Source: a virus
Length of the DNA: 23,591 nt
Virus record (IMG/VR): IMGVR_UViG_3300025110_000131
Location: 1-23,591 of that record
Strand: one strand, 5' to 3'
Within the stretch, counting starts at the first letter, position 1, and each line of letters opens with the position of its first letter. Position numbers and translations under genes: made by a program. The notes below the pieces were generated by a model. That model made no database searches. It was not told the DNA's origin and saw nothing but the letters and a program-made list of their open reading frames with translations. Positions 2,762 through 19,658 of the stretch are shown here, in pieces.

Positions 2762-2983
2762 CTAGTTTGCAGTTTTTTCTTCGTTATTATCTAACGATGT
2801 TGTCAGCATACTTAAACACGCTTGATGACCTATCTGCACCTGACGCAAGTGAGCTTGTGCAGATGTAATCTTTCTTTCTAAGTCAACAACGTCACTCAAG
2901 AATACTTTCTGAGTGTCGTTTAAATCATCGTAGTTATGTTCAGTGCCATTGATCGTGACGGTGTTTGTGTTTTTTTTAGCCAT
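2762..2983 (-). CDS. small coiled-coil protein (DUF6447-like pattern)
   Basis: A 73-residue protein. A short beta part TVTINGTEHNYDDLNDTQKV is followed by a coiled coil VVDLERKITSAQAHLRQVQI and a tail SMLTTSLDNNEEKTAN. The ITINGTEYxxDxLxxxxK plus coiled-coil layout resembles small proteins of a domain of unknown function often seen with phage tail genes (DUF6447; name from memory). AAAAGGAGATCACG gives a strong ribosome site. Function unknown; possibly a fibre or tail assembly factor. It lies 23 bases after the previous stop. Confidence 0.75.
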   Translation of the reverse strand: MAKKNTNTVTINGTEHNYDDLNDTQKVFLSDVVDLERKITSAQAHLRQVQIGHQACLSMLTTSLDNNEEKTAN

Positions 2984-3006
2984 CGTGATCTCCTTTTAAG
3001 TTAAAT

Positions 3007-3276
3007 TTATGAAGTGAATGAATTAGCCGCAGTAATAGCTTTGTCTATTTCTGTAAAACTTTCACTGCCCCAATCTTCTAATGCTTTCATGTGAACGAGA
3101 TAGCCGTTACTACGAGCTACACGCTCTTTCTTTTCGTCATGCGTCATGTCATGTCCGAAATCTCTGTCCGTTGCATCACTGCCTTTAGCGTGGGTAGCAA
3201 TAACGCTGTTAATTACCGACACACTGCCCAGCATTGCTGCGTGGTCCTGTGCGATTTGATCTGCTTCTCTTGCCAT
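3007..3276 (-). CDS. small conserved protein next to oxygenase, unknown function
   Basis: An 89-residue soluble helical protein starting MAREADQIAQDHAAMLGSVS. Centre DRDFGHDMTHDEKKERVARS, then NGYLVHMKALEDWGSESFTE and a C-terminal IDKAITAANSFTS. AAGGATAAATAAA precedes the start. The ERVARSNGYLVHMKALEDW-type helix pair seems familiar from small proteins beside phage fibre genes (recall). It has His and Asp/Glu residues but no definite metal site. A fibre-assembly chaperone is possible; I assign no function. Confidence 0.72.
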   Translation of the reverse strand: MAREADQIAQDHAAMLGSVSVINSVIATHAKGSDATDRDFGHDMTHDEKKERVARSNGYLVHMKALEDWGSESFTEIDKAITAANSFTS

Positions 3277-3281
3277 TTTAT

Positions 3282-3923
3282 TTATCCTTGTAGCTGTGCA
3301 ATGTTGATATTGCCTGAGATTGATATACGTTCCCCATCATTATCATAAAAGGGAAACACCTGATGAAGCATAGTTGATGGAAACATAACCATGTAACCCT
3401 CTGCTTCTTTCTCCATGTTGTAGGCAAAGGTTGACACCCTGCCCAACGTATTTGTGTAACTAAATGCAAAATTAGAAATGTGATTGTCTGCATTCGAGTT
3501 GGCACAAATAGGAAGTTTCTTCTGCTCTGCGTAAGATGTAGGTATCTGCATCCATATGACAAAGCTGTACACACCACTGTGGTCGTGCGGTGGGTTAAAC
3601 TCATGCTGCTTCTGGAAGTTAACCCAGAGGCTTTCCAAGTTCCAACCCTCACCCTCCTGCATAGTTTCACGCCAAGGTCCGCCATACGCCTCAATGTGGC
3701 TTTCTATAAACGAAGGCAGTAGCTCAGTCACAAACTCCTTGAGTAGGGGTGAGTCACCGTCCAGCCTGATAGACGTACTTATGTTACCTGCTAACTCAGG
3801 CTTCATATCCTCTGGTTGTTCTCGTGCTTCGTTTACAACTTTCCATATGTTGTCCACAACGTCCTCTGGGAGTTGCCCCTCAACAACCCCTACATTAGGA
3901 AAGTTTCGTTGTATTAGGTCCAT
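3282..3923 (-). CDS. 2OG-Fe(II) oxygenase-like protein
   Basis: A 213-residue protein with the layout of the phage/bacterial 2-oxoglutarate and Fe(II)-dependent oxygenase family. The core strand WVNFQKQHEFNPPHDHSGVY gives candidate iron ligands in H113-D114-H115, and MVMFPSTMLHQVFPFYDNDG gives the distal His187. GERISISGNINI carries R199, the likely 2-oxoglutarate carboxylate contact. Such enzymes hydroxylate proteins or small molecules. No substrate is visible, but the gene lies directly after the tail fibre, so modification of a virion protein or host factor is a reasonable guess. AAGG before the start. The HDH cluster leaves the exact ligand pair ambiguous. Confidence 0.72.
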   Translation of the reverse strand: MDLIQRNFPNVGVVEGQLPEDVVDNIWKVVNEAREQPEDMKPELAGNISTSIRLDGDSPLLKEFVTELLPSFIESHIEAYGGPWRETMQEGEGWNLESLWVNFQKQHEFNPPHDHSGVYSFVIWMQIPTSYAEQKKLPICANSNADNHISNFAFSYTNTLGRVSTFAYNMEKEAEGYMVMFPSTMLHQVFPFYDNDGERISISGNINIAQLQG

Positions 3924-3925
3924 GC

Positions 3926-6900
3926 TTAACCTTCTAGTGTTGCTATACGGGCAAGTGCCGCATCTAGTTTGGTTGATAACTCTTGTATGGATTTAATTAA
4001 TGGAGAAACAAACATTTCACGGCTGATTGTTTGGACACCATCTAGACCCTCTCCCCAACCTGCAAAAGTATCTACACCTTCAGCATCTAAAGCTGTTTTA
4101 ACTTCCTGTGCAACCAGACCATGCATAGTTACATTAGTGTCTCTCTCATTTTCTTCCTTGTAGTAAGGTAGACTTTTATCAATATCGTTACTTGGTTTCC
4201 AATTATAAGTAACAGGATTAAGTCGATTTATAAAAGACAATCCAAGTGTATCATCTTGAATGTTTGTTTTTAACCGTTCATCTGATGAATGTGACCAAGT
4301 AGCATTTGAAGTAAAAGTATTAGAAATTTTACCTGCACCTGAACCTATGGTAACAGTGCTACCTCCACTACCTGTGACTCCGGGACCAATTACTATTTCT
4401 GCTGTAACTGTTGCACTTGAAACTTGATTTGCATATCCAAGCAAAACATTAGAAACACCTGTCGTGATCGCAGTTCCTGAATCTCTACCTATACAAGTAT
4501 TGCCATTGCCTGCACCTTCAACATCTTGAAGAGCGCCTTGTCCTACTGCTGTGTTATTTGCTCCAGTAAGTTTATTAGAAGAATTACCTACTCCTGCACT
4601 AGACCCTACAAAGGTATTTGTGTTTCCTGTGGTTACATTTTGCCCAGCTTGGCTTCCTATAAAAGTACAACCTACGGCTGTGGTGAGTTCTGCTCCTGCA
4701 TTATAGCCAACAGCCGCGTTAAAACTATCTGTGGCAGTCGTAAAGTTTTGTGAAAGTAAAGCTTGGTATCCTACAGCCGTTGATTGAGAGCCAAGTGTAT
4801 CACTGCTCAAAGCAGTATAACCTAAAGCAGTGTTCTTATCTGCATCTGTAAGAGCATCACCCGCTGCCCCACCGATGAGGGTGTTGAGAATTCCGGTGGT
4901 GACCTGACTACCTGCGCTGTCACCAATAGCCACGTTGTGAACATTTGTAGCTGTCGTAAAGTTTTGAGCAGTTAATGCGTTAACACCGATTGCAATAGTG
5001 CTGCTGCCTTGAGTGTCATTATCCAAAGCTTGCAAACCAAGGGCTATGTTGCGACCTCCTGTCGTTAATGACATCCCTGCAACGCCTCCGACAAGAGTGT
5101 TGTAAAGTCCAGTAGTCAAAGCTTTACCTGCACGATCACCAATAGCTACGGTAAAACCATCTATTCCTGCGTTCAAAGTTTGAAGTGCTTGATAACCTAT
5201 TGCTACATTTAGACCGTGAGCGTCTTCTGTAGATAACGCTTCTCTTCCTATGGCTATATTTTGAGTTCCAGTAGTCAAAGCATCACCTGCTAAACCGCCT
5301 ATTAAGACGTTGTCTGTACCCGTGGTGACTGCTGCTCCTGCATCAAAACCTACCGCTACATTATAACTATTTGTAGTTGTCGTAAAGTTTTGAGCCATTA
5401 ATGTGCCGTAACCTACAGCAACATTTCTTGCTCCTTTGGTGTCTACAAGCATTGCATTAGCACCAAGCGCAACATTTCCCGAAGCAGTATTAGATGCACT
5501 TAATGACTTGTAACCAACAGCAAGATTAGCTTCACCTGTCGTAAGTGAGTCACCTGTAAGACCACCGATGAGGGTGTTTTCTTTGCCTGTGGTAATTGAA
5601 GAACCTGCGCCCATACCAATACCTACATTATAGGTGTTTGTAGCTGTTGTGAAATTTTGTGTAGCTAATGCTGCGTTACCAATAGCTACTGACATACTTC
5701 CAAGAGTATCAGAACCTAGTGCATTTTTTCCTACGGCTACGTTATAGTCTGCATCCGTGAGTGCATCACCTGTGCCACCACCGATCAAGACGTTATCTAT
5801 GCCTGTGGTCATAGCAGTACCTGCATCGTCACCTACGGCTGTGTTGCTACCAGTTGCTCCTGCATTAAGAGTTTTTAAAGCTCTATTGCCTATTGCTACG
5901 TTATTTCCATGACCATCTTCAGTGCTAAGAGCCTCAAAACCTACCGCTACGTTGTAACTTCCTGTCGTGAGTGCATCACCTGCAACGCCACCTATAATAG
6001 TGTTCTGTACGCCTGTGGTAATTGCCCCTCCTGCACTATATCCCATAGCTACATTGTAAGTGTCTGTAGCTGTTGTGAAGTTTTGAGTTCCTAAAGCAAA
6101 TCTACCAATCGCAATAGACCGATTACCTTTTGTATCAGAACCTAACGCATTTTTGCCTAAAGCTGTATTAAGGCTACCAGTAGTCAAAGCATCACCTGCT
6201 AAAGAGCCAACCAGAGTGTTGTCGGTTCCTGTCGTGACTGATACCCCTGCGTAATAACCAACGGCTGTGTTAAAACTATCTGTGGCTGTAGTATAATTTT
6301 GAGCCTCTAAAGCAAAAGTACCTATTGCAGTTGATTTGCTTCCTAGCGTGTTAGCCCCTAAAGCGTTGTATCCCATTGCTACGTTATAGTCTGCATCCGT
6401 AATTGCATCACCTGCTAGGCCACCCATTAAAGTGTTTTGTGTGCCTGTGGTTATTGATAAACCTGCAAGATAACCAACAGCTACATTATAAACAGACGTA
6501 GATGTTGTAAAGTTTTGAGCATTTAAAGTTCCTCTTCCTATTGCAGTCGATCTATTTCCTGCCGTATCTGAACTTAAAGCGGAAACACCAATGGCATCAT
6601 TATCAGTTCCAGTAGTAAGTGCATCACCTGCTAGGCCACCGACAAGGGTATTGTTTTGACCCGTGGTAATTGCTGTACCTGCGAAATAACCAACGACTGT
6701 GTTATAACTATCTGTGGCAGTCGTGAAGTTTTGATTAGCTAAAGTGGCTCTACCTATTGCAACGGACTTAGAACCTAAAGTGTCTGAGTTTAATGCACTG
6801 TCACCAATAGCTACATTGTCATCTGCGTCAGTTAGACTGTCTCCTGCAAATGCGCCAATCAGATTGTTTCGCAAACCTGTGGTAATTGATAGTCCTGCAT

Positions 6901-7597
6901 TAGTACCAACAGCCACGTTATAACCTTCTGCCCCAGCGTTAAGTGTTTTTAACGCACGATAGCCAACGGCTGTATTATTACCGTGAGCATCTTCCGTAAC
7001 TAAAGCCTCAAAGCCAACAGCCACGTTGTTATCACCCGTAGTCAAAGCAGTACCAGCCTCATCGCCCAAGACCACGTTGTAGTTACCGCCAGAGGTTATT
7101 GCATCACCTGCGTTGACGCCAAGGCGTAGGTTGGATGTACCTGCTGTACTTGTAGACAAACTTGGAACAGAAAGATCAGCAAACGCATCAACCATAGCCG
7201 CGCCAGAACCTGCGCCATCTGAATAGATAGCCTTAGTTTGTCCCGCCGAGATTGTAATGTTAGCCCCAGACCCTTGGGATATGATAATGTTCTGGGAACC
7301 AGAAGTTCCGTTTTCAATAAACCACAGCTTGCTGACCGTGTTCGGCCCTATTGTAATTGTACAAGCAGAATCTAAAGTTCCTGTGTATTTCAAGAACATT
7401 GAGCGTCCGGGGTCCGTTGCCCCATCCGCAATTGTAGTTGTGTGCGTGTCAGCATTTGTTGTTATGGCTTCTGTGCCAAAAGAAAACGCTTCCGCAATGA
7501 GTTCGAGGTTGGTGTTTGTTGTATCGCCCCAAGTACCAGACTGTTCGCCTGTAGCAATTTCTTCTAGTCTTAGGTCATTTACATATGTACTAGCCAT
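3926..7597 (-). CDS. tail fibre with 72-residue repeats and S74 intramolecular chaperone domain
   Basis: A 1223-residue receptor-binding fibre candidate. The N-terminus (MASTYVNDLRLEEIATGEQS, GTWGDTTNTNLELIAEAF) is a tail-attachment-like domain, followed by strands (GRSMFLKYTGTLDSACTITI). From about residue 157 to 1057 run repeats of NxAxG type in 72-residue super-units (for example NTLVGGLAGDALTTGTDNDA). The C-terminus, from about residue 1100, has SDERLKTNIQ with S1105 and K1110 at the spacing of the S74 Ser/Lys dyad, HGLVAQEV, and a final coiled coil IKSIQELSTKLDAALARIAT. S74 domains trimerise the fibre and cut themselves off before the Ser. Repeats resemble the beta-roll of trimeric adhesin heads. 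AAGGATTTAAAAC precedes the start. Confidence 0.88.
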   Translation of the reverse strand: MASTYVNDLRLEEIATGEQSGTWGDTTNTNLELIAEAFSFGTEAITTNADTHTTTIADGATDPGRSMFLKYTGTLDSACTITIGPNTVSKLWFIENGTSGSQNIIISQGSGANITISAGQTKAIYSDGAGSGAAMVDAFADLSVPSLSTSTAGTSNLRLGVNAGDAITSGGNYNVVLGDEAGTALTTGDNNVAVGFEALVTEDAHGNNTAVGYRALKTLNAGAEGYNVAVGTNAGLSITTGLRNNLIGAFAGDSLTDADDNVAIGDSALNSDTLGSKSVAIGRATLANQNFTTATDSYNTVVGYFAGTAITTGQNNTLVGGLAGDALTTGTDNDAIGVSALSSDTAGNRSTAIGRGTLNAQNFTTSTSVYNVAVGYLAGLSITTGTQNTLMGGLAGDAITDADYNVAMGYNALGANTLGSKSTAIGTFALEAQNYTTATDSFNTAVGYYAGVSVTTGTDNTLVGSLAGDALTTGSLNTALGKNALGSDTKGNRSIAIGRFALGTQNFTTATDTYNVAMGYSAGGAITTGVQNTIIGGVAGDALTTGSYNVAVGFEALSTEDGHGNNVAIGNRALKTLNAGATGSNTAVGDDAGTAMTTGIDNVLIGGGTGDALTDADYNVAVGKNALGSDTLGSMSVAIGNAALATQNFTTATNTYNVGIGMGAGSSITTGKENTLIGGLTGDSLTTGEANLAVGYKSLSASNTASGNVALGANAMLVDTKGARNVAVGYGTLMAQNFTTTTNSYNVAVGFDAGAAVTTGTDNVLIGGLAGDALTTGTQNIAIGREALSTEDAHGLNVAIGYQALQTLNAGIDGFTVAIGDRAGKALTTGLYNTLVGGVAGMSLTTGGRNIALGLQALDNDTQGSSTIAIGVNALTAQNFTTATNVHNVAIGDSAGSQVTTGILNTLIGGAAGDALTDADKNTALGYTALSSDTLGSQSTAVGYQALLSQNFTTATDSFNAAVGYNAGAELTTAVGCTFIGSQAGQNVTTGNTNTFVGSSAGVGNSSNKLTGANNTAVGQGALQDVEGAGNGNTCIGRDSGTAITTGVSNVLLGYANQVSSATVTAEIVIGPGVTGSGGSTVTIGSGAGKISNTFTSNATWSHSSDERLKTNIQDDTLGLSFINRLNPVTYNWKPSNDIDKSLPYYKEENERDTNVTMHGLVAQEVKTALDAEGVDTFAGWGEGLDGVQTISREMFVSPLIKSIQELSTKLDAALARIATLEG
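4430..7130 (-). repeat. about eleven 216-base super-repeats in the tail fibre gene
   Basis: A direct in-frame repeat of about 216 bases encodes 72-residue units of the fibre. Two variants of the inner half occur: one with SSDTLGSKSVAIGRATLANQ-type and one with TEDAHGNNTAVGYRALKTLN-type sequence. They are interleaved irregularly, which suggests recombination or domain swapping. Copies are moderately diverged at DNA level; boundaries are approximate. Confidence 0.8.
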
Positions 7598-7608
7598 GTT
7601 TTAAATCC

Positions 7609-8310
7609 TTACGCTGCAATTTTTGTCCATCCGGGAGATTGAGACGGCGTTGTGGTACTATACCCCGGAACTTGAGACGGCGTTACGGTACTATACCCCG
7701 GATTTTGATCTGGGACAATACTTCCCCAAACAAGAACCTGACCAACACCACCTGTGGCTGCCACGCCTGTTACAGACACATCGTTACTTACAGAGATGGT
7801 AACTGACCCTACGGAGCCCGTTCCCGTTACACCCGTAGCGTTAATATTTGCGTCTGCCGTTGCAATGACAGAACCTACAGAGCCCGTTGCTGCTACGCCA
7901 GTAACGGTTATATTGGCGTCCGCTGTGACGACAACAGAACCTACAGAACCTGTTCCCGCTACACCCGTAGCGTTAATATTTGCGTCTGCTGTTACAGTGA
8001 CCGAGCCTACAGAGCCCGTGCCCGCTATTCCAGTGGCATTAATATTTGCGTCTGCCGTTACAGTGGCAGAACCCACAGAACCTGTTGCTGCTATTCCAGT
8101 GGCGTTAATATTTGCATCTGCCGTTACAGTGACAGAACCTACAGAACCTGTTCCCGCTAGTCCAGTAGCAGGGACATTAGCTGTTGCAACAACCGTTACA
8201 GAACCTGTTTGTCCCGTTGCGCCTGTGTTTGTAATAGAGTCTTGGCCCCAAGAGAGTTGACCCCACGTTCCTCGACCCCAACCAGAGAGAGGAACGATAA
8301 TATCCGTCAT
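7609..8310 (-). CDS. 22-residue-repeat tail protein with Trp-Gly head motif
   Basis: A 233-residue protein. The N-terminus has SGWGRGTWGQLSWGQDS (residues 9-25). Residues about 35-185 hold seven 22-residue units of type TGSVGSVTVTADANINATGI, and the C-terminus has three PGYSTxTPSQ-like units ending in SPGWTKIAA. The repeat is Gly/Ser/Thr/Val with regular strands, consistent with a stacked beta or collagen-like shaft. The head motif WGxGTWG is shared with the nozzle candidate. Likely a tail spike, fibre or adhesion protein next to the large fibre; no receptor-binding domain can be named. Confidence 0.72.
   Translation of the reverse strand: MTDIIVPLSGWGRGTWGQLSWGQDSITNTGATGQTGSVTVVATANVPATGLAGTGSVGSVTVTADANINATGIAATGSVGSATVTADANINATGIAGTGSVGSVTVTADANINATGVAGTGSVGSVVVTADANITVTGVAATGSVGSVIATADANINATGVTGTGSVGSVTISVSNDVSVTGVAATGGVGQVLVWGSIVPDQNPGYSTVTPSQVPGYSTTTPSQSPGWTKIAA
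7756..8208 (-). repeat. seven 66-base repeats encoding the 22-residue units
   Basis: Direct in-frame repeats of 66 bases encode TGSVGSVTVTADANINATG-type units; the last two units are more diverged (TISVSNDVSVTG). Copies keep the reading frame, so copy number could shift by recombination. The opposite-strand open frame seen here is an effect of the repeat composition. Confidence 0.85.
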
Positions 8311-10675: not shown

Positions 10676-11350
10676 TTATTCCTCGTTGTAAAGGTTATCA
10701 AAAACCTTGTTAACATCTAATGTGTAGTCTAACTCAGATTTTGAATAATGTATATGCTGAGATGGCTTGAAGTCAGGAGCGCCCTCTCCTGTTTGAAACC
10801 ATGCAGGGTGTGTTACGCGCACACGGTTATTAGGTAACGCAACAATATTGCCCGTCCATTCTCCTGCATCTAACAGTTGAAGAACGTGATTTTGTTTGTG
10901 TTGTGCCGGATCATCAGCGATTTCACTCTCAGTGTAATCTACAGTAAATAAATACTTTGCCGGGTGCATTTTACCATCTATTTTAGCCATCCAAGGACAT
11001 GGGGTGGTCCTATCCATAACATAAACAGAGTTATAATGAGAAGCACAGTCCCAAGGTTGTGCATCATATGTTTCCATCGGTTCTGGCCATTCTTCTAAAG
11101 GAATGTCGGCAACAAGTGCAGTTATTGGCATACGAGCCCACATAGCTCCACCGTGTACGGTGTCCTCTTTCTCTCCTTCTGCCTCACTTCCAGTAAAAAT
11201 TACTTGAAAACTTAAAGATCGGTTTGGTATTGTTGTTACACCAATGACCATAGCATGAAGAAATTCGCCGTGATACGCCTCATGGTTATGAGTATATTCA
11301 CGACGAACCCATGCCTTGAAATAAGGAATATTGCTATGTAAATATGCCAT
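10676..11350 (-). CDS. conserved protein of the head-tail region, unknown function
   Basis: A 224-residue soluble protein, starting MAYLHSNIPYFKAWVRREYT. It is rich in His/Trp/Tyr, with NHEAYHGEFLHAMVIGVTTI, SLSFQVIFTGSEAEGEKEDT, MWARMPITALVADIPLEEWP, PCPWMAKIDGKMHPAKYLFT and a C-terminal KPSQHIHYSKSELDYTLDVN. There is no Cys/His metal signature of a known enzyme and no membrane helix. The mix of strands and aromatic residues suggests a folded beta domain. Position between basic proteins and the connector suggests a virion protein. I recall similar unnamed proteins in marine phages. The start has no strong ribosome site, so coupling to the upstream gene is likely. Confidence 0.75.
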   Translation of the reverse strand: MAYLHSNIPYFKAWVRREYTHNHEAYHGEFLHAMVIGVTTIPNRSLSFQVIFTGSEAEGEKEDTVHGGAMWARMPITALVADIPLEEWPEPMETYDAQPWDCASHYNSVYVMDRTTPCPWMAKIDGKMHPAKYLFTVDYTESEIADDPAQHKQNHVLQLLDAGEWTGNIVALPNNRVRVTHPAWFQTGEGAPDFKPSQHIHYSKSELDYTLDVNKVFDNLYNEE

Positions 11351-11353
11351 ATT

Positions 11354-11581
11354 TTATTTTTTAACTATCTTATAACCAGCGGGAAGTGATGCTCTTGCTG
11401 AAGCAAGTGATTTCTTACCACCAGCGGCTCCACCTTTTGACATACGCATTACTTTTTTACCACCAGCGGCTCCACCTTTAGACATACGGCGAACTTTTTT
11501 ACCGCCTGCGGCTCCGCCTTTAGACATCTTCTTAACTTTACCACCACTTCGGTAGCCTTTGCTTTTCATCTTCTTTTTCAC
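11354..11581 (-). CDS. Lys/Gly/Ala-rich repeat protein, histone-tail-like
   Basis: A 75-residue protein with three tandem 14-residue units of type MSKGGAAGGKKVRR (residues 19-32, 33-46, 47-60), a basic head (MKKKMKSKGYRSGGKVKK) and a tail SLASARASLPAGYKIVKK. It has no acidic residues at all. The Lys/Gly/Ala repeat resembles low-complexity basic tails that bind DNA by charge. It starts by ATGA overlap with the previous basic protein. Function unknown; internal DNA-binding or condensation is inference. Confidence 0.75.
   Translation of the reverse strand: MKKKMKSKGYRSGGKVKKMSKGGAAGGKKVRRMSKGGAAGGKKVMRMSKGGAAGGKKSLASARASLPAGYKIVKK
11402..11527 (-). repeat. three tandem 42-base repeats in the basic repeat protein gene
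   Basis: Three direct in-frame copies of about 42 bases encode MSKGGAAGGKKVRR-type units. Copies differ by scattered third-position changes (for example GCCGCAGGC/GCCGCTGGT), so they are not freshly duplicated. Copy number is likely to vary between relatives by recombination or slippage. Confidence 0.85.
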
Positions 11582-13221: not shown

Positions 13222-13770
13222 TTACGCAATTTGAACGTACTCAATGATGAATGTAAACGATCCTGCTGTTGTAGCATCAACGGTGTTTGTAATGTTGCAG
13301 TAAATAGTTCTTTCGGTGTCTGTATATTGAACAGAGGCTGGGGCTGTTGTGCCGTCTTGTGTCTGAAGAACTAATGCAGTTACCGTTACGTTATGCTCAA
13401 CAACAGTTGTACCGCCGTCTAAAATCTCATCAGTCTGAGCCGCAACAATCTGCGCACCAGAGGAAGACGTGCCAACTTCGTAACCAATATCACCTGTTCC
13501 AATAACAGGAGATGTGTCACAAAATATTTTAATGTCAGTGATGATTGTGTTTGCTGGCTGTGTAAACTCACCAATTGTAGGACTATCGCCTGCTGTTGTG
13601 TTTACCGTAACGCCAGTAGCAAAGCCGACATGCTTCACATATTTATTTGTTACAATGCCTGTTGAGGCTGTATTAGCTACAGTTGTAAAAGCACCAGTTG
13701 TTGCATTTTTAGAAACAACTTGGAAGCCGTTTTCTGAACGGACGGGACCGTTAAAAGTTGTATTAGCCAT
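13222..13770 (-). CDS. virion structural protein, beta-rich
   Basis: A 182-residue product starting MANTTFNGPVRSENGFQVVS. This ATG is chosen because AGGAG lies 6 bases ahead; a frame extension of seven codons upstream has no ribosome site. The sequence is dominated by Thr, Val, Gly and Ala, with alternating beta-strand patterns (FATGVTVNTTAGDSPTIGEF, VEHNVTVTALVLQTQDGTTA) and ends in FTFIIEYVQIA. The opening motif, proteins starting M-A-N-T-T-F-x-G-P-V-R-S-x-x-G-F, seems familiar from marine phage virions near the coat gene (recall). Likely a head-surface fibre or decoration protein; that role is inferred from composition and position. It is flanked by a terminator on each side. Confidence 0.72.
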   Translation of the reverse strand: MANTTFNGPVRSENGFQVVSKNATTGAFTTVANTASTGIVTNKYVKHVGFATGVTVNTTAGDSPTIGEFTQPANTIITDIKIFCDTSPVIGTGDIGYEVGTSSSGAQIVAAQTDEILDGGTTVVEHNVTVTALVLQTQDGTTAPASVQYTDTERTIYCNITNTVDATTAGSFTFIIEYVQIA

Positions 13771-13825
13771 GATATACTCCTGTCTTGGCAAATGTCAGCC
13801 ACATGATGCGACTGTCAGGGATAGT

Positions 13826-17612: not shown

Positions 17613-18068
17613 TTAAACCATTAGTTCAAAATGAGGCCCATCAATAAAAGGACGCCTGCCTTCGCTACGACGCAAATCTATGTACGCATTCATAGCTTCT
17701 TCCATTGTACCATTCCACTCACGAATATCTGGGATATGCCATGCAGCGCCCCAACGAATACCAACTCCAGCAGCTTCAGCACCTTCTTTCATAGCATCAG
17801 CAAGATCATCGTACAAATTCAATTCCCACGACCCTCTTGATCCAATATAGGCCATGAGGTCCACGGCGTGACCGCCAAGATGTTTTGATTTCATGGTTTT
17901 ACTTGCGCCTTTAGCAACAAGTTCTCGCTGTTCTTCCATAGTTCGTAACCCGCAGATCACGCCAAAATCAATCTTTGTGACGGCGATAGCATAGTCAACG
18001 ACTGCGATCAGCCCGACATCTACTCCCTCCAGCCTGTCTCGACTTCGTTTAGATAGTTTAAATGTCAT
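17613..18068 (-). CDS. endolysin, M15-type zinc peptidase (L-Ala-D-Glu / D-Ala-D-Ala class)
   Basis: A 151-residue single-domain enzyme, expected to cut the peptide stems of peptidoglycan at the end of infection. Metal-site motifs of the M15 family are visible: SKHLGGHAVDL gives H63 and D70, and PHFEL near the end gives H146. The intervening region carries GVGIRWGAAWHIPDI, matching the family's Trp/Gly-rich strand. The N-terminal helix SKRSRDRLEGVDVGLIAVVD and the CGLRTMEEQRELVAKGAS segment also fit the VanY/T5-endolysin-like fold. There is no signal peptide, so access to the wall would depend on the holins encoded upstream. AAGGGG precedes the start. Fine substrate specificity cannot be read from sequence alone. 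Confidence 0.88.
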   Translation of the reverse strand: MTFKLSKRSRDRLEGVDVGLIAVVDYAIAVTKIDFGVICGLRTMEEQRELVAKGASKTMKSKHLGGHAVDLMAYIGSRGSWELNLYDDLADAMKEGAEAAGVGIRWGAAWHIPDIREWNGTMEEAMNAYIDLRRSEGRRPFIDGPHFELMV

Positions 18069-18145
18069 TTTGTTTTCCCCTTGTAATACAAAACTCCGAA
18101 CAGCTTGTATTTAATTCTGTAGTATAGGTTTATTATTACGGTCAT
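18065..18145 (-). CDS. 26-residue basic peptide, possible coupled gene ahead of endolysin
   Basis: The ATG overlaps the previous stop (ATGA) and the TGA overlaps the endolysin ATG (ATGA), so the frame bridges the two genes exactly, with GGAGGTAAAAAT before its start. The peptide is MTVIINLYYRIKYKLFGVLY followed by a basic tail. It is amphipathic/basic and short. It may be a real membrane-active peptide, or its reading may simply deliver ribosomes to the endolysin start. Both overlaps and a good ribosome site favour translation; the tiny size keeps confidence moderate. Confidence 0.5.
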   Translation of the reverse strand: MTVIINLYYRIKYKLFGVLYYKGKTK

Positions 18146-18306
18146 ATTTTTACCTCCAAACACGCCACAGCAATCCCATTATGAGTTACCATAACCTCCG
18201 CACGTTTTCTATTTGTTTCGCATTCAGTCTTAGTTTCGTAAACAGCCAACTGAAAATGATCTACGGGCTGTCCTGATATTAACTGCATCCAAACCAGTAC
18301 CCACAT
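18142..18306 (-). CDS. 54-residue protein with N-terminal hydrophobic segment, unlisted small gene
   Basis: The product starts MWVLVWMQLISGQPVDHFQL and ends in VTHNGIAVACLEVKI. An N-terminal hydrophobic segment of about 11 residues is followed by a charged region with two Cys (TECETNRKRAEVM and VACLEV). The pattern looks like a small exported or anchored domain with a possible disulfide and is reminiscent of hypothetical proteins in marine phage lysis regions (recall only). It starts 10 bases after the upstream stop, and its TGA overlaps the ATG of the next tiny gene (ATGA). The context suggests a lysis accessory; spanin function is not supported by a lipobox or clear coiled coil. Confidence 0.65.
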   Translation of the reverse strand: MWVLVWMQLISGQPVDHFQLAVYETKTECETNRKRAEVMVTHNGIAVACLEVKI

Positions 18307-18315
18307 TATCTTTTT

Positions 18316-18519
18316 TTAACCATTCGATCTGCCGCCTACATAACCACCGACAACACCAATTACTCCAGTAAGTGACATTTGAAGTAAACCTATGATGCTT
18401 TCGTCTAACGCACCACCATGTTCATTTGCCATTTGAAATTCATCTACGACTATAAGTCCAAGAATGCCCATCAGACCCACAACCATAATTAATACTGTTA
18501 TATCTTTAATATATTTCAT
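18316..18519 (-). CDS. small two-helix membrane protein, Gly-rich
   Basis: A 67-residue protein with hydrophobic segments at about 7-26 (ITVLIMVVGLMGILGLIVV) and 42-63 (IIGLLQMSLTGVIGVVGGYV), joined by a polar loop with HGGALDES. The second helix has closely spaced Gly residues typical of tight helix packing. It lies between the second holin-like gene and tiny genes leading into the endolysin. It is likely an inner-membrane component of the lysis cassette, possibly another holin/antiholin subunit. I recognise no named family. Confidence 0.75.
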   Translation of the reverse strand: MKYIKDITVLIMVVGLMGILGLIVVDEFQMANEHGGALDESIIGLLQMSLTGVIGVVGGYVGGRSNG

Positions 18520-18526
18520 TTACTAC

Positions 18527-18826
18527 TCACTTTTTGTTTGCAAGAGAAGAGCCTGTTAGAATTGCTCCAAATGCTAGATGAAACAACCCACCACCCAGAA
18601 GTGTAAATGGATCGTGCTGTCCTGTTAGCTTCTTCATCAATTCCATTTGAACCATTGGCTCCTTAGTTGAATTTATAATCTCCATAAATTGGGAGATGTC
18701 TGGTCTGTTTAATCCCCACCAAACTGGGCAAAATAGAAAGTCATAAAAGCAAATGACTAAATAAAATATAAGTGCGGTCCAACGCCACGTTATTGTACTT
18801 TTTTCATGTGCGGTTAGCTTCTCCAT
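18527..18826 (-). CDS. second holin-like protein, two membrane helices
   Basis: A 99-residue protein with a charged N-terminus (MEKLTAHEKSTITWRW), a first membrane segment (about 16-37, ALIFYLVICFYDFLFCPVWW), a soluble loop, and a second segment (about 73-95) with the motif PFTLLGGGLFHLAFGAILTG. The DFxxxPVxW plus PxTLxGGGLFHLAFGAIL pattern is one I associate with holins of marine and other phages; this is recall and not a search. It begins directly at the stop of the 33-residue peptide gene, showing operon-level coupling. Two holin-type proteins in one cassette may mean a holin/antiholin pair or two membrane-lesion systems. Confidence 0.72.
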   Translation of the reverse strand: MEKLTAHEKSTITWRWTALIFYLVICFYDFLFCPVWWGLNRPDISQFMEIINSTKEPMVQMELMKKLTGQHDPFTLLGGGLFHLAFGAILTGSSLANKK

Positions 18827-18928
18827 TTAAAGACAGGGTGGTGTACACATAGCTTTATTAACTCCATAAATCATAACAACAAAAAGTATTGCCAATCCTA
18901 ATCCAATCCAAATCCATTTATTTTTCAT
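18827..18928 (-). CDS. 33-residue single-helix membrane peptide, unlisted small gene
   Basis: The ATG overlaps the holin stop (ATGA), and the TAA directly abuts the ATG of the next gene, so the frame exactly fills the space between two real genes. The peptide is a short basic head (MKNK), a hydrophobic helix (WIWIGLGLAILFVVMIYGV) and a Cys/Pro tail (NKAMCTPPCL). It is therefore a single-pass membrane peptide with a small periplasmic tail carrying two Cys. A lysis accessory role (pinholin-like, antiholin or spanin-like) fits the context but is not shown. No lipobox is present. Too short for common gene callers. Confidence 0.68.
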   Translation of the reverse strand: MKNKWIWIGLGLAILFVVMIYGVNKAMCTPPCL

Positions 18929-19302
18929 TTAGAAACCTTTTTAACCTTCTCAAATGACCTCATACCAGCCAAACCGAGCATACCTGTTAAAATAGGCATC
19001 ATCACAGCCATATCTGCTTGAGGTATAACAAACCCAAACCCTGCACAAATTGGAGAGAGTAAGAAGTTTACAAATAAACCTAAAACGCACACATATCCGC
19101 ATAATGGCCTCCAAGACGCCTGAAACCAATTTCCCTGTGCTTCAGCCTTGTTTACCGCTAACTGCGCTAACATGGCCTCCTGTGCGTGCCTATCAGCCAT
19201 TGTGCTAATATCATGCGCAAGTTGTGCAGCTTTATCTTTGTCTTGAACAAACTTACCAACAATCTCAGTTGCTGGGCCTATTAAAGAACTAATTATACTC
19301 AT
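18925..19302 (-). CDS. holin candidate, GTA 3TM holin type
   Basis: A 125-residue protein resembling the 3TM holin family described for gene-transfer-agent release. It has an N-terminal amphipathic helix (SLIGPATEIVGKFVQDKDKA), a charged Ala/His/Glu-rich helix, and the hallmark segment NWFQASWRPLCGYVCVLGLF at about residues 58-77. Hydrophobic stretches lie at about 67-88 and 98-114, and the C-terminal tail is basic. Holins accumulate in the inner membrane and permeabilise it to release or activate the endolysin. The gene overlaps both neighbours by ATGA and lies a few genes before the M15 endolysin. Family call is from the WRP...GY motif and overall layout; it could alternatively act as an antiholin to the second holin-like protein. 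Confidence 0.75.
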   Translation of the reverse strand: MSIISSLIGPATEIVGKFVQDKDKAAQLAHDISTMADRHAQEAMLAQLAVNKAEAQGNWFQASWRPLCGYVCVLGLFVNFLLSPICAGFGFVIPQADMAVMMPILTGMLGLAGMRSFEKVKKVSK

Positions 19303-19658
19303 TTACCCTCCTCTCTATCATCATAAGTAATTGATGCTTTCTTCTTATCTGCCTTTGCAGAGTAAGCATTGAACCCCATAAACGCAGCAACAACACCAGA
19401 CGCTGCTATCACATAAACAGAGGCAATGTCTGTTATAAGAGAAGCAGCTTTGTCAAAGCCAAGCACCGAAGCAAGCAATATAATAAGTGGATACAAAAGC
19501 ATTCCAGCCAAAGCAAACCCGGTAAACCTACGTTCCGCATTGCGCTTGAGGTCCCGGTCAACCATCTCAAGCCTACGATCTTCTAAGGCAAGACGATTCC
19601 ATTCTTTTCTATCTATATAGCCGTTAGAGTCTAAATCAGCTTTATCAAACTCAGTCAT
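19299..19658 (-). CDS. EF-hand membrane protein, holin-cassette member
   Basis: A 119-residue protein joining a canonical EF-hand calcium loop to membrane helices. The loop is D8-x-D10-x-N12-G13-x-I15-D16-x-x-E19, with every liganding position filled. A charged Arg/Glu-rich helix follows (about 20-45), then two hydrophobic segments (about 46-67, FTGFALAGMLLYPLIILLAS, and 77-98), and a basic/acidic tail. It sits between the anchored protein and the 3TM holin, overlapping the latter by ATGA. Topology and context suggest a holin, antiholin or lysis regulator at the inner membrane, with calcium or another divalent ion as a possible ligand. The role is inference; the EF-hand loop is read directly from the sequence. 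Only one EF-hand is present, so pairing would have to come from oligomerisation. Confidence 0.8.
   Translation of the reverse strand: MTEFDKADLDSNGYIDRKEWNRLALEDRRLEMVDRDLKRNAERRFTGFALAGMLLYPLIILLASVLGFDKAASLITDIASVYVIAASGVVAAFMGFNAYSAKADKKKASITYDDREEGK

Follow-up and report, generated by a model that had tools for sequence, protein, structure and literature searches.

Of the accessory genes of marine phages that still lack an explanation, those for oxygenases dependent on Fe(II) and 2-oxoglutarate (2OG) belong to the most common, and present guesses at their role are DNA repair or control of 2OG and nitrogen. Within this broad assemblage, P4H enzymes carry an R-x-S/T motif, of which the basic residue and the Ser/Thr bind the 2OG carboxylate, and AlkB enzymes carry RxxxxxR. 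The textbook Fe(II)/2OG facial triad is HX(D/E)...H, as defined in PMC4543633. Another report counts 24 2OG-Fe(II) oxygenases in one genome and describes the viral functions as not specifically investigated (PMC9602691). The sole link between a phage oxygenase and a tail fibre found in a search of openly available journal articles is Table 1 of PMC3909814.

Several described systems come close to the gene reported here, which we denote OX. The PF13759/phrog_81 oxygenases of cyanophages (S-SM2 SSM2_037 and P-SSM2 PSSM2_184) are 36-45% identical to OX over 93% of the protein in BLAST comparisons and share its HxH...H...RxS pattern, but their neighbours are DNA polymerase/UvsX, oxygenases, ferrochelatase and head/tail genes, whereas OX is accompanied by a fibre with a Peptidase_S74 (S74) chaperone and by a small gene, DN89. 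In S-SM2, an OX relative with 44.5% identity lies inside a cluster flanked by tail-fibre genes. In the cultured SAR11 phages HTVC111P and HTVC112P, the tail fibre is followed by a glycosyltransferase and then by a DN89 homologue. Two TIGR02466 structures, 3bvc and 2rg4, both titled uncharacterised proteins, are like OX in fold, in H-x-H and in a later H...R-x-S, but are 15-18% identical to it. AlkB DNA repair oxygenases combine RxxxxxR with HxD, whereas OX has Asn205 and HxH at these places. The Pseudomonas putida prolyl hydroxylase PPHD (4j25, Z 14.3; 4iw3, Z 14.1) and other P4H/PHD enzymes have the double-stranded beta-helix (DSBH) fold, the distal His and R-x-S/T in common with OX, but PPHD and OX are 13% identical, and in place of the HX(D/E)...H triad (PMC4543633) OX has HxH...H.

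The oxygenase gene and its neighbourhood

The window, that is, the whole stretch of DNA analysed here (23,591 nucleotides; IMG/VR virus record IMGVR_UViG_3300025110_000131), has no near match in the phage collection searched with megablast. Its portal is ~49% identical to the portals of the Pelagibacter phages HTVC027P and HTVC023P, and the phage is therefore a relative of the HTVC023P/HTVC027P group. The open reading frame singled out in a preliminary description was recovered with identical ends, and we add that it lies on the (-) strand, in the following arrangement:

2762..2983 (-): DN73, the next small gene, 73 aa, phrog_21153, function unknown
3007..3276 (-): DN89, 89 aa, partner of the S74 fibre, directly downstream of OX after a 5-nt gap
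3282..3923 (-): OX, PF13759/phrog_81 oxygenase, 213 aa, with H113, H115, distal H187 and R199-x-S201
3926..7597 (-): tail fibre, 1223 aa, with many NVAVG-type repeats and a C-terminal Peptidase_S74 intramolecular chaperone

The start of OX lies 2 nt after the fibre stop, and DN89, which has no match in Pfam, PHROG or NCBIfam, is a fibre-module gene in relatives; the earlier placement of the gene directly after the tail fibre and ahead of small fibre-linked genes thus stands, as does the assignment to the oxygenase family. OX passes the Pfam cut-off of PF13759 (2OG-FeII_Oxy_5; 42.8 bits vs 27, E 7.4e-11), with residues 99-205 aligned to positions 2-101 of the 101 in the profile, and residues 8-210 match phrog_81, '2OG-Fe(II) oxygenase', in PHROG (E 1.1e-29). 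Two NCBIfam runs gave 28.7 and 28.1 bits for TIGR02466, the cut-off of which is 62.5 bits; judged by this rule, OX is a relative of TIGR02466 and not a member. A tblastn search with OX returned 190 phage records, every one below 60% identity and mostly from Synechococcus and Prochlorococcus phages, and searches of PDB sequences gave 0 matches with OX alone and chance matches only with profile A2.

The dN/dS of OX against 14 relatives is 0.04-0.09 (16 were tested; synonymous sites are unsaturated in these 14), and OX is therefore a selected gene; for 614 pairs, values have a median of 0.083 and reach 0.18 at most. The possibility that OX is a chance open reading frame is ruled out by the values for the 14 relatives.

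Several other features of the window were recorded in passing. Just upstream of the fibre, 7609-8310 (-) encodes a 233-aa protein of GTGSVGSVTVTADANINATGIA-type repeats without a Pfam or PHROG match, and a similar gene follows DN89 in three loci (L041-L043). An Rfam RF03012 Mu-gpT-DE RNA (13768-13820 (-); 68.5 bits vs a gathering score of 49) lies between the major capsid gene and the next downstream gene. The gene at 10676-11350 (-) matches phrog_3704, 'ferredoxin' (E 5.6e-29), without a Pfam match, and this label looks doubtful; 11354-11581 (-) encodes, from a GTG start, a 75-aa Lys/Gly repeat protein of KKVRRMSKGGAAGG units, and a longer similar repeat protein is present in L046.

Predicted fold and iron site

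An AlphaFold2 model built from a diverse 61-row alignment (pLDDT 93.5, pTM 0.91; an earlier run on the shallow alignment A1 reached pLDDT 37.1 and was left unused) gives OX the predicted DSBH fold of the Fe(II)/2OG superfamily. Foldseek returned 288 PDB chains at E <= 0.001, and the 50 listed were mainly DSBH oxygenases. The best PDB folds for the model were 3bvc (Ism_01780; Z 15.5) and 2rg4 (Z 14.8), and among characterised enzymes the scores were 14.3 for the P. putida prolyl hydroxylase, 13.6 for an algal P4H, 13.2 for PHD2, 13.1 for AlkB and 13.0 for LH3. The closest characterised folds to the model are mainly protein prolyl and lysyl hydroxylases; differences within 1 Z were counted as ties, so that the fold indicates a DSBH oxygenase, P4H/AlkB-like, without naming a substrate. 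The preliminary description had favoured a virion protein instead of DNA as the target. The fold alone does not allow DNA use to be set aside, since AlkB-type DNA-repair folds, at Z 13.1, come close to P4H, and distant relatives adjoin DNA replication genes.

The same description had read an HDH cluster, the distal His187 and R199 as fitting an active 2OG oxygenase. The residues H113-D114-H115, H187 and R199 are present at those positions, and the predicted fold, the family and the conservation of H187 and R199 speak for this reading; the Asp of the cluster does not, and the HX(D/E)...H triad, as PMC4543633 defines it, is replaced in OX by H113-x-H115...H187. Among 61 diverse sequences (identity down to 18%), H113, H115 and H187 are invariant in 61/61, whereas position 114, the variable residue of 'HDH', is Asp in just 25. 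R199 is kept in 60/61, R199-x-S/T also in 60/61, and Asn205, six residues after R199, is invariant. Across the best 80 of 118 confirmed viral OX loci and the window (81 rows, 66 distinct), H113, H115, H187 and R199 are unchanged wherever present.

Since Asp114 is variable and H115 invariant, it is His115 that stands in the sequence where an Asp/Glu ligand is usually found. The iron site would consist either of three histidines or of two, with the third ligand missing or unusual, and the R-x-S/T motif is consistent with 2OG binding. Judging from these motifs, 2OG/Fe activity of OX is likely, though non-canonical because HxH...H is invariant and the Asp is not. An H-x-H followed by a later H...R-x-S is found also in a bacterial TIGR02466 protein, as it is in 3bvc and 2rg4. 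Among the papers listed on TIGR02466, 2OG-FeII_Oxy_5 and three-histidine triads (12 of 74 for the last), none, as judged by title and the start of the abstract, deals with the chemistry of this family.

Genomic contexts of the oxygenase

We compared three sets of loci: the best 80 of 118 confirmed viral loci with OX, the best 80 of at least 306 confirmed loci seeded with DN89, and a third set comprising the best 80 of at least 513; these sets overlap in contigs, and their counts are not additive. Among the best 80 of 118 OX loci, the fibre is directly upstream of OX in 57, DN89 lies between the two in 3, a contig edge intervenes in 7, and 13 are linked to a holin, so that fibre or lysis neighbours are present in all 73 close loci uncut at the upstream contig edge. 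Where the fibre adjoins OX, 2 nt separate its stop from OX in 48/57 loci and DN89 is directly downstream in 52/57; because fibre adjacency is inherited, these are not 57 independent events.

In the DN89-seeded loci (best 80 of at least 306), DN89 is preceded by OX in 26 cases and immediately by an S74 fibre in 41; the remaining ones have a fibre without an S74 call (2), another open reading frame between (5) or a contig edge (6). A second oxygenase, 23-25% identical to OX by BLAST, lies right after DN89 in 8 of these 41 S74-DN89 loci, and the copy in L148 passes PF13759 (E 5.8e-14). Two loci (L099 and L101) present an empty site, in which nearly the same fibre C-terminal tail and a close DN89 are 5 nt apart without OX. 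Given that fibre-DN89 pairs without OX exist, OX is an optional insert. The S74 and DN89 matches of HTVC112P were confirmed by profile searches, and its enzyme is a borderline match to GT9, the heptosyltransferase family (22.1 vs a cut-off of 22); the glycosyltransferase of HTVC111P is known by annotation. The site behind the fibre therefore accepts enzymes, of which OX is one. OX is genuinely linked to the fibre module, as an optional member.

Fibres with and without OX are alike in the two features compared, and none that predicts OX was found. After removal of fibres with identical last 200 aa and of those shorter than 350 aa, NVAVG-type repeats exceed one motif per 100 aa in 40/40 fibres with OX and in 33/34 without it. 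The proline content is low, 0.80% with OX (n=40) vs 0.98% in fibres followed directly by DN89 (n=34), and so gives no sign of a proline-rich substrate. The same repeats with and without OX, together with the near-identical tails in L099 and L101, indicate that the fibre can do without OX. Among 23 loci whose OX shares 93% or more identity with that of the window (93-98%; L001 and L002, with 100% identity, were excluded), BLAST found DN89 in 22, at 72-98% identity, and the S74 part in 18, at 31-76%. Very unlike fibre ends thus stand beside a conserved OX-DN89 pair, which therefore travels with these ends or is swapped among them.

The lysis cassette is an alternative home of OX, and the following genes of the window have homologues next to it elsewhere:

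18925..19302 (-): GTA_holin_3TM holin; in 13 lysis-cassette loci, its homologue lies next to OX on the downstream side
19299..19658 (-): EF-hand-like membrane protein; its homologue lies upstream of OX in L040, L046, L048, L050, L067 and L077

The lysis cassette of the window itself spans 17613-19658 (-) and consists of an M15 peptidase, two membrane proteins, the GTA-type 3TM holin and the EF-hand-like membrane protein; the window's OX is absent from it. The 13 holin-linked OX genes form one clade (SH-aLRT 95) of a rapidly built tree whose outgroup branches are long; the count of changes on this tree left 7 edge loci and 7 outgroup rows without a state. A strictly fibre-only enzyme was set aside given these 13 loci among the best 80 of 118.

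Distant relatives of OX are mostly found in other contexts, namely, DNA replication, other oxygenases and head genes. Scanning 102 of the 121 listed neighbours of the wider family identified 21 other phrog_81 oxygenases, 12 ferrochelatase-like proteins and 7 UvsX; among the neighbours listed, neither S74 nor DN89 was seen near relatives with 36-51% identity outside the window's clade. In one locus (L178), an oxygenase 50-51% identical to OX (4349-5041 (+)) directly follows a phrog_2599 gene, ribosomal protein S6 glutaminyl transferase-like (2993-4345 (+)), another possible protein-modifying enzyme. Chromosomal PF13759 genes of the alphaproteobacterial SAR116 group (L242, L243) and Rhodobiaceae (L244) are 47-49% identical to OX over nearly the whole length, and the L243 copy passes PF13759. 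The SAR116 relatives imply that this enzyme type is not phage-specific. In L242 and L243, the oxygenase (6001-6651 (+)) is a single gene among ordinary chromosomal genes, and no phage genes were seen around it in the open reading frames read. The genome scan that found these genes matched 7 loci by a single pattern, a count that does not amount to a survey.

Possible targets of the enzyme

Our leading, unproven hypothesis, put forward tentatively, is that OX modifies a late fibre-module protein, with the fibre or DN89 as substrate. In this marine relative of HTVC023P/HTVC027P, OX would be optional cargo of the late fibre operon, probably expressed late, with its translation following that of the fibre across the 2-nt gap; its product would be a DSBH iron oxygenase, the predicted fold and distal His/Arg-x-Ser of which resemble those of protein prolyl hydroxylases. 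Using iron and 2OG, it would most likely hydroxylate one or a few residues of a polypeptide, in the fibre repeat shaft or in DN89, before or during assembly, and this modification, though dispensable for folding, may alter adsorption or stability. That enzymes have been placed repeatedly at a single site is the strongest point in favour of a function linked to the fibre or the cell surface. The preliminary idea of virion protein modification accordingly survives in part: the linkage to the fibre (57 loci, and 3 more via DN89, among the best 80 of 118), the second PF13759 enzyme and the hydroxylase-like fold favour it, and the 13 lysis loci, the independence of the fibre from OX and the relatives elsewhere, including SAR116, count against it.

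The latter observations fit an OX that acts late in infection on a target in the host, either a translation protein or a metabolite, in which case the slot behind the fibre would be no more than a handy place for insertion into a late operon with high expression. The lysis cassette houses the same OX clade too (13 of the best 80 of 118), its 47-49% identical relatives are ordinary SAR116 chromosomal genes, and the fibre does not need OX; in addition, PPHD, the closest characterised fold by Z, acts on EF-Tu (PMC4543633), and modulation of 2OG and nitrogen is a published idea for cyanophages (PMC3037559). A host-directed enzyme, however, would be expected early, whereas in 48/57 loci OX starts 2 nt after the end of a late structural gene, and the presence of another, divergent PF13759 enzyme next to this module would have to be a coincidence. 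We regard such a target as doubtful, albeit a serious contender.

That OX instead changes the surface of the host (its LPS, a lipid or a receptor), perhaps to keep released virions from sticking to debris or to exclude superinfection, as other fibre-linked surface enzymes can, seems improbable. The slot does hold a GT9-like glycosyltransferase in HTVC112P and an annotated one in HTVC111P, and for the metaviromic islands of marine phages, 'Host recognition' has 8 entries that are Fe(II) oxygenases (PMC3909814); but those fold neighbours whose substrates are known are for the most part peptidyl hydroxylases and AlkB-type enzymes, and the model, by its secondary structure alone, is one compact domain over 213 aa without a separate membrane-binding part. 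Still less probable is a role of OX mainly as a conserved flank that aids fibre-tip exchange by homologous recombination, with its chemistry secondary. The S74 parts that are 31-76% identical to the window where OX is 93-98% identical would fit such exchange, but dN/dS of 0.04-0.09 and invariant catalytic residues show selection on protein function, and pS reaching 0.40 in the close OX group implies that long DNA identity is not kept.

AlkB-like DNA repair, proposed in print (PMC3037559, PMC9146016 and PMC11288001) and in keeping with the AlkB structures at Z 13.1 and with the DNA polymerase, UvsX and endonuclease V genes that distant relatives adjoin, is very improbable and is rejected as the main role of the OX clade on gene context, that is, the fibre or lysis neighbours of all 73 close uncut loci, and on the invariant Asn205 at the position of the second AlkB arginine.

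Returning to a fibre-module target, a wider reading, which we consider unlikely as a whole, is that marine phages possess, in the S74 fibre-DN89 module, a modification slot which any of several enzymes can occupy (either of two divergent PF13759 oxygenases, or a glycosyltransferase), each tuning the fibre or its receptor chemically, and that PF13759 is a large three-histidine (HxH...H) class of 2OG-type peptidyl hydroxylases, the first to act on a phage virion. For the marine phages, an oxygenase clade tied to the fibre module yields a concrete, testable list of two candidate substrate proteins. For the family, the invariant HxH...H, found also in 3bvc and 2rg4, raises the question of a three-histidine iron site in a common family.
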